Assembly: GCF_037893015.1 (NCBI RefSeq)
Contig: NC_133663.1
Location: 144,998,577-145,062,576 of the forward strand
Direction of reading: 5' to 3'
From: Macrotis lagotis
Taxonomy: Eukaryota > Chordata > Mammalia > Peramelemorphia > Peramelidae
Length of the DNA: 64,000 nt
The translations under genes were made by a program, and so were the position numbers. Numbering within the stretch: the first letter of the stretch is position 1; each line of letters opens with the position of its first letter. The notes beneath the pieces were generated by a model that saw only the letters and a list, made by a program, of their open reading frames with translations, was not told the DNA's origin and searched no databases. Positions 50,725 through 52,451 of this stretch are shown in pieces.

Positions 50725-50740
50725 AAAAAATCATGAGGGA
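50725..50740 (+). repeat. Left target-site duplication of the SINE complex
   Basis: AAAAAATCATGAGGGA, identical to 52340-52355. The duplicated L1 sequence is continuous when the insert is removed. Confidence 0.95.
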
Positions 50741-50959
50741 GGGGGCAGCTAGGTGGCACAGTGGATAGAGCACTGGCGCTGGAGTCAGGAGTATCTGAGT
50801 TCAAATCCAGCCTCAGACACTTTTATTTTTCGATTTAAGCATTTACTTCTGTGAACAACACATTACCCTAAGCACTGAGACTACCAAGAAAAAAAAGTTA
50901 AACTTTCCTGCTCCTAAGAGAGTTGTTATTCTTAGAGCAAGTCCATACTCTTAGAGGTC

Positions 50960-51160
50960 ACCAAAGGGAGGCACAGGTGTGGCCTGGAACCAGGAAAACC
51001 CAATTCCAAATCTCAGACACTCCACAGGCTGCGATCCTTGCCAAATCACTCCTCCTCAGTTTCTTTGGCTGTAAAAAGGGGGTGGTCGGAACACCTCCCT
51101 CAATGGTTGTTGTGAGCATGAGTGGCAGGAGGAAGCGCTCTATCAATGCTCCTCTGAAGT
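50960..51160 (+). mobile_element. MIR SINE inside the foreign segment
   Basis: GTGGCCTGGAACCAGGAAAA, CTTGCCAAATCACTCCTCCT, CAGTTTCTTTGGCTGTAAAA and AATGGTTGTTGTGAGCATGA follow the plus-strand MIR order, so the foreign segment contains ancient genomic DNA. Confidence 0.75.
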
Positions 51161-51718
51161 TGAAGGAAAATAAAGATCTCAAACACCCCTTAGTTCTGAA
51201 TACAGATGCTATCCCCTCCCCCATTTTTCCTGTCCTCTAGTCCTGCGGGCACCGGGATGTTGGCTGATGGACACATGGGCTTCAACTAGAACTCTCTCTG
51301 AAGGGCAGCCGGGATGGTTGAGGAGCAGGTGACACCATTTTACAGACTGAAAAGCCAGAGCAAAGAGCACCTTGGTGGGCTTTACTTCTGGGGAGATTTC
51401 CTCCCCTAGATACACAATCTTGAAGGTCTCATGGAGCCCATGCGTTGGCCTGGTTAAGAGTTCTACCTGGACCCATGGGGGGAAAGTGATCTTGGCCGGT
51501 CACCCAGGCAGACCCCAGCGGCCCACCACCTGACCACCCGAGGCAACAAGATGCCCGGCAGTCCGAGTGGGCACATAGGTGAAAAGAAAACTCCCGACAC
51601 AGCCACTGCCAGGGAGATCGCTTAGGGGTGGGGAGGCCGGTTTCAACTATGGCAGGGTCGTTTGGAAACGGGAAAACTGGAGAAAAGTGATAAATGACTG
51701 TAAAATCGGGAGTCAGCC

Positions 51719-52256
51719 ACTTATAGGGCCGGGGGTCCCCTTGGGGTTGGGTTCGGGCTGGGGCTCCCCGTGGCTCCAGCCCAAGCGAAGGGCGCTGCCC
51801 CCGTTAGCTCTGCGCGTGGGGCCGCAGCTCCAGGCCGGGGCATCTGGCTTCAGGAGGGTCCGGCCAGCCCGGCTCGGCTCAGGGGGGCCCGTGGGGCGCG
51901 GCTCCAGCCCGAGGCCGCTTCGGGCCGGACCTCCCCTGATCGCTCGCACGTGGCCGCTGGGGGGGGGTCCTCCCCGCTGCCCCCTCCCCGAACCCCACGA
52001 AGTTGGACAGAAACGAGGCGCCGGCAGGGAGGCCCCGACTGCTCCCTCCCGCCCAGGTCCGGGCCCACGCGGCGCAGGCGGATCCAGGGCTGCGGGCCAG
52101 GCCGGCGCGGGCCCTGGAGGACAACTAAGCCGTGGCCCCACCGGGCCGGCCTCACCTCACCCTCCGGCCCCTTCCCGCGGCCCTGCAGCCCCCACCCACC
52201 TCCGGCTCCTACTGCAGTGGCGGCTCCTGCGGCCTCGGCTCTCCTCCCTAAAGCCC
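51719..52256. promoter_or_regulatory. CpG-island-like block (promoter or first-exon fragment?)
   Basis: By eye, G plus C dominates and CpG dinucleotides are frequent (for example GCGTGGGGCCGCAGCTCC near 51811 and CCCACGCGGCGCAGGCGG near 52065). The rest of the window is AT-rich and CpG-poor. On the minus strand a TATA-like CCCTATAAGTGG lies at about 51719-51730, at the edge of the block. GC-rich, CpG-kept DNA of this size usually marks a promoter or 5' exon in mammals. There is no sign that it works as one here. Confidence 0.55.
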
Positions 52257-52313
52257 AGCCTCAGAAGCTGTGTGGCCTTGGACAAGCCATTTAACCCCAC
52301 TGCCTAGCAAAAA

Positions 52314-52339
<26 letters not shown>

Positions 52340-52349
<10 letters not shown>

Positions 52350-52355
52350 GAGGGA
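52340..52355 (+). repeat. Right target-site duplication of the SINE complex
   Basis: Identical to 50725-50740. It overlaps the end of the poly-A, so the A-run boundary is ambiguous by a few bases. Confidence 0.95.
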
Positions 52356-52451
52356 TGACTTCACAAAAACCTGGAAAGACTTATACGAATATTATACACA
52401 CTAACAACCACATGAAGTGATGATCAACCATGATAAGACTTCTTCATTTCT

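Follow-up and report, generated by a model that had tools for sequence, protein, structure and literature searches.

A CpG-rich insert in a SINE, probably retrocopied from a NAP1L4 transcript that was unspliced and polyadenylated too early

A SINE in the window, the whole 64-kb stretch of DNA analyzed, is interrupted by about 1.43 kb. Judging from the sequence comparisons below, the insert is very probably a single L1-type retrocopy of a NAP1L4 transcript that was left unspliced and polyadenylated prematurely. The initial annotation offered three readings. Support was obtained for one of them, in which a transcript read from the minus strand of a CpG-island promoter was retroposed into the SINE: there are a parent locus, two natural transcript ends, an A-run, a target site of the TT/AA type, and an inner duplication that is partial. 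The event, in which roughly the first 1.5 kb of an RNA from a housekeeping gene would have been copied, is mostly ordinary retroposition, but half a CpG island was relocated by it.

Structure of the split SINE

The SINE belongs to a common local kind, and the identical outer duplications ascribed to it earlier are real, with AAAAAATCATGAGGG(A) at positions 50725 and 52340 being exact over 15-16 bp. The sequence shared by the inner junctions is also present, as CCAGCCTCAGA at 50807 and 52255, and extends over 11 bp where 10 bp had been reported. The insert proper spans 50823-52254 and measures 1,432 bp. Loss of SINE bases at the joint was rightly noted, with the previous figure of about 13 bp replaced by 11 bp wholly absent (AATAATTACCT) and a gap of 16 bp (CACTTAATAATTACCT) after the right-hand inner repeat, both relative to a consensus built from 30 SINE copies, which were drawn from the window together with 40 kb of contig C3. 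Copies entered this consensus when their match spanned the SINE start and extended to position 70 or beyond in a query of 79 bases, and others were dropped. The features are as follows.

50725..50739, no strand: left outer target-site duplication of the SINE, exact repeat of 52340-52354
50741..50822, plus: host SINE 5' part ending in CAGACACTT (first base ±1-2), from the 30-copy consensus alignment
50807..50822, no strand: left inner target-site duplication, CCAGCCTCAGACACTT, 16 bp, after which the SINE consensus continues AATAAT
50823..50830, minus: short A-run, TTATTTTT on the plus strand, mostly not encoded by the parent (50829-50830 ambiguous)
50829..52254, minus: putative retrocopy of the first part of a NAP1L4 transcript, 5' end at 52254, by homology to G000:C3:276381893-276383466
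50842..50847, minus: candidate AGTAAA poly(A) signal, the sole AATAAA, ATTAAA, or AGTAAA in the first 1,966 nt of the parent
50829..52199, minus: retained stretch downstream of the exon 1 donor (putative intron 1), with the donor GGAG/GTGGGTGG kept and unspliced
52200..52254, minus: putative exon 1, 55 nt, without ATG, from the AAGC homology end in both loci and the donor position
51700..52254, no strand: CpG-rich part, derived from that side of the parental CpG island which is transcribed
52255..52265, no strand: right inner target-site duplication, first 11 of 16 bp
52266..52339, plus: host SINE 3' part and A-tail, the tail running into the outer duplication
52340..52354, no strand: right outer target-site duplication of the SINE, exact repeat of 50725-50739

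The flanks of the composite were joined and compared with other copies of the repeat around it. In 12 alignments the match crossed the joint and held the target sequence once; two of them were duplicates from overlapping loci, small gaps lay near the joint, and a stricter rule (>25 bases on each side) retained three. Because such alignments cross the joint, the composite seems to occupy a site in a dispersed repeat that was formerly empty.

The right part of the insert had been described as the only CpG-island-like DNA in 64 kb, and this was borne out, as 51521-52400 alone passed the island test (300-bp windows, step 10, GC ≥ 0.55, CpG observed/expected ≥ 0.6). The segment 51700-52256 holds 52 of the 199 CpGs in the window, over the whole of which CpG observed/expected is 0.112.

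Parent locus and the copied RNA

When 50821-52256 served as the query against the 3.66-Gb assembly, the window, one long relative in two pieces, and three short matches were returned. The long relative, a minus-strand gene start at G000:C3:276381893-276383466 (L007 5893-7466), corresponds to the transcribed half of a CpG island 1.8 kb long; a parent locus with a CpG-island gene start was what the initial annotation would take as support for retroposition. With the CpG-rich part as the sole query, the window and the C3 locus were found and nothing further (2/2 candidates scored). The search scores its best candidates alone (5/5 for the whole insert), and further weak copies are possible. The three short matches (46-110 bp) cover query positions 161-299, corresponding to 50981-51119 of the window, in the middle segment for which the initial annotation proposed a MIR, and fit an old dispersed repeat.

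Insert and parent are 74-76% identical with gaps and approximately 87% identical without them (1109/1278 aligned bases), differing by 169 substitutions and by indels. A GC-rich repeat of approximately 230 bp in the parent island (L007 6845-7076) has no counterpart in the copy; it either expanded in the parent after copying or was lost from the copy. A misjoin of parent DNA, as in the assembly reading proposed earlier, would not yield such differences; the insert also ends where a transcript appears to start and to be polyadenylated, and its A-run is largely untemplated. With ends that look like natural transcript ends and a copy diverged from its parent, an assembly join is, on this indirect evidence, very unlikely.

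Pfam NAP (PF00956) matches were obtained for four of six minus-strand frames tested downstream of the start (E values 1e-7 to 1e-19). The two frames without a match to this family were L009 7265-7687, which would precede the NAP domain, and L009 6442-6615, located between two matched stretches; by eye, we take the minus-strand frames, these two included, to be successive NAP1L4 exons. In a PDB search with two frames, the best relatives were NAP1L1 chains, and NAP1L4 was absent among the chains listed. SNORA54 was detected in the gene body on the same strand (77.2 bits, gathering score 60), and mouse Snora54 is located within Nap1l4, as indicated in PMC12101510. Judged by the NAP frame matches and SNORA54 in its body, the parent gene is NAP1L4.

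A parent from a Smith-Magenis (17p11.2-like) region was first suggested by a sub-threshold Rfam SMCR2_2 match, scoring 26.1 bits in the insert and 30.1 bits in the parent (gathering 55), with E values of 0.08, 0.0079, and 0.11 over 30 kb. A genome search with the GID4 family (PF09783) gave 12 places, none of them near C3:276 Mb and two on C3 at 16.4 Mb. This candidate was dropped because SNORA54 and the NAP exons pointed to NAP1L4, and the SMCR2_2 match, though not disproved, was treated as chance. The 12 GID4-family matches lie on contigs C2, C3, C5, C7, C9, C28, and C428, and several are in one piece or contain stops, which suggests retrocopies of GID4 in this genome. Separately, L030 3766-4416 (G000:C3:276519766-276520416) holds a 217-aa open frame inside a CpG island, with C2H2 zinc-finger matches below the Pfam cut-offs; by eye it resembles an intronless ZNF511 and may be a retrogene.

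One end of the homology is AAGC, 55 nt upstream of the GGAG/GTGGGTGG splice donor in both loci. The 5' boundary of the copy probably marks the transcription start, and the donor the putative boundary of exon 1. The donor and the sequence downstream of it, which would be intron 1, are retained in the copy, so introns were not removed; exon 2 was not located. The other end is AAATCGAA, 13 nt past AGTAAA. In the first 1,966 nt of the parent from the presumed start, AATAAA and ATTAAA are absent and AGTAAA occurs once, at the copied end. AGTAAA is a weaker poly(A) signal than AATAAA. Past the copied end the parent continues with TCGAATGAGTATC on the minus strand (TGAGTATC), not with an A-run, and the A-run of the insert, short and with one T inside, is largely untemplated. 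The AAGC end, the kept donor, AGTAAA, and the untemplated A-run fit an unspliced NAP1L4 transcript that was cut and polyadenylated at its first usable signal; in this species NAP1L4 would then be transcribed from, and polyadenylated at, these two points. A cap-derived extra G at the 5' end was considered, and no claim is made for it, as the extra C may be part of the inner duplication (CCAGCC).

The apparent-start 5' end, A-run, and TT/AA-type nick are shared with processed pseudogenes made by L1, and the inner duplication, incomplete on the right, may correspond to their target-site duplication. Those, however, end in the 3' UTR, whereas the insert ends downstream of exon 1, is unspliced, and has no coding exon that could be seen; with the donor and following sequence kept, it falls outside the strict definition of a processed pseudogene, in which introns are removed. 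Semi-processed retrogenes, such as rodent preproinsulin I, keep an intron. The insert likewise retains intron sequence, but such retrogenes carry a coding gene and the insert would consist of exon 1 and the start of an intron alone.

In Srrt-depleted mouse embryonic stem cells, cryptic poly(A) sites that lie early in first introns, close to their 5' end, are used, as indicated in PMC6969169. The resulting RNAs, short and with cryptic ends from premature cleavage and polyadenylation, resemble the RNA presumably copied here, but that report concerns RNA and the insert would be a genomic copy of it. Among the titles and abstract openings listed in literature searches, no described retrocopy of an unspliced, intron-retaining, or prematurely polyadenylated RNA was found, which is not proof that none exists.

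Insertion into the SINE and competing origins

The SINE consensus at the break is CACTT/AATAATTACCTAGCTG (including CACTT/AATAATTACCT), and the A-run adjoins CACTT, for which reason the nick site reads as CTT/AATA, of the TT/AA type. The L1 endonuclease has a target of this type, and L1 target-site duplications range from approximately 7 to 20 bp. On the left stands CCAGCCTCAGACACTT (16 bp); on the right only the first 11 of these bases remain, and AGCTGTG comes immediately after them. The inner duplication is thus exact over 11 bp on both sides and is cut on the right by the 16-bp gap; we read it as originally 16 bp long and trimmed by a small deletion on insertion or later. A gap already present in the target SINE was set aside, as none of the 14 of 30 local copies that a sequence pattern could read at this position has it (one was 2 bases shorter). 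The target motif and duplication are what point to L1 as the probable source of the enzyme.

Non-CpG differences between insert and parent amount to 79/709 (11.1%) in the low-CpG part and 28/322 in the island part, and those between the SINE and its consensus to 6/119 (5.0 ± 3.9%). A divergence of approximately 2:1 is about the ratio expected for two lineages against one, and would place insert and SINE at a similar age, with a wide error for the SINE and an uncalibrated clock.

That similar age, together with the exact outer duplication enclosing the whole, would also suit the mobilization of a composite SINE-island-SINE RNA as one unit, another reading of the initial annotation. Each inner junction, however, matched once in the 3.66-Gb assembly, in the window itself (30-base pattern, ≤3 mismatches; a reversed control pattern gave no match), so multi-copy junctions of the SVA kind were not seen beyond this single copy. 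Parent-locus alignment showed that the parent stretch is without flanking SINE halves; a separate SINE lies approximately 130 bp past the copied end, outside the copy. The insert is antisense to the SINE, in conflict with the single transcription unit and orientation of SVA-like elements, and has its own 3' A-run and its own partial duplication. With one match per inner junction and a parent without SINE halves, the composite element is not supported and very improbable.

A one-event chimera, in which reverse transcription switched templates between SINE RNA and NAP1L4 RNA, would likewise explain the similar ages, and the 11 bp of SINE lost at the joint could be counted in its favor. It would need two switches, and a simple switch to a sense transcript should give the other strand, since the insert lies opposite to the SINE. 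The target motif and the inner duplication would be unexpected as well, leaving this origin only a slim chance.

Retroposition of the NAP1L4 transcript into a resident SINE has difficulties of its own: the right inner duplication is incomplete (11/16 bp), the A-run, interrupted by a T, is short, AGTAAA ranks below AATAAA as a signal, identity with gaps is 74-76%, and the approximately 230-bp parent repeat is unmatched. It would have begun with insertion of the SINE into an older dispersed repeat, producing the outer duplication. Later, a NAP1L4 transcript would have been cleaved and polyadenylated downstream of exon 1, just past AGTAAA, while still unspliced. L1-type machinery would then have cut the SINE at CTT/AATA and, with priming at the A-tail, reverse-transcribed the RNA as far as its 5' end, producing the inner duplication. 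A 16-bp deletion, during or after insertion, would have shortened the right duplication at its end and taken 11 bp of the SINE as well.

CpG retention and significance of the relocated half-island

The fate of CpGs was scored at parent CpGs aligned without gaps, with TG, CA, or TA in the insert counted as deamination-type change. In the island part, 12 changes of this type stood against 42 kept CpGs (12/54), with 22 more changed otherwise, and in the low-CpG intron part 15 against 14 (15/29), with 5 more changed otherwise. For comparison, the two consensus SINE CpGs were changed in 23 cases and kept in 12 (23/35) among the 20 of 30 copies whose non-CpG divergence was ≤9%; the split SINE itself kept 0/2. 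The island part differed from the low-CpG part (Fisher P = 0.013) and from the SINE copies (Fisher P = 6e-5), and the low-CpG part did not differ from the SINE copies (P = 0.31). When every CpG not kept was counted as lost, the contrast within the insert was not significant (34/76 versus 20/34, P = 0.22). Lower deamination-type loss in the island part than in the intron part or in SINEs of similar age is only suggestive.

Changes from parent to insert showed a strong directional bias (G>A 38, C>T 32, A>G 6, T>C 3). Either the copy lost GC or the parent gained it, and because of this bias the parent may have gained CpGs. The half-island, lacking the upstream core promoter, might have remained for the most part free of germ-line methylation from its insertion onward, thereby becoming a new orphan CpG island. 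We regard this idea as doubtful and hold it back, since an outgroup would be needed to tell losses in the copy from gains in the parent. Its setting is AT-rich, CpG-poor DNA. A precedent for the relocation of CpG-rich DNA by an integrated pseudogene is the PPP1R26P1 retrocopy carried to a new site in RB1, which, as indicated in PMC4537222, forms a promoter and a gametic differentially methylated region inside the gene; the insert, by contrast, has no known function.

A composite element would have had greater import, but that reading fails. If the retrocopy reading is right, prematurely polyadenylated first-intron RNA, studied as a by-product of transcription, would be a possible substrate for heritable retroposition. 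Because such RNAs start inside CpG islands, this would also be a route for moving half an island without its promoter, and the site would serve as a natural experiment on whether a high density of CpGs is by itself enough to shield DNA from methylation.
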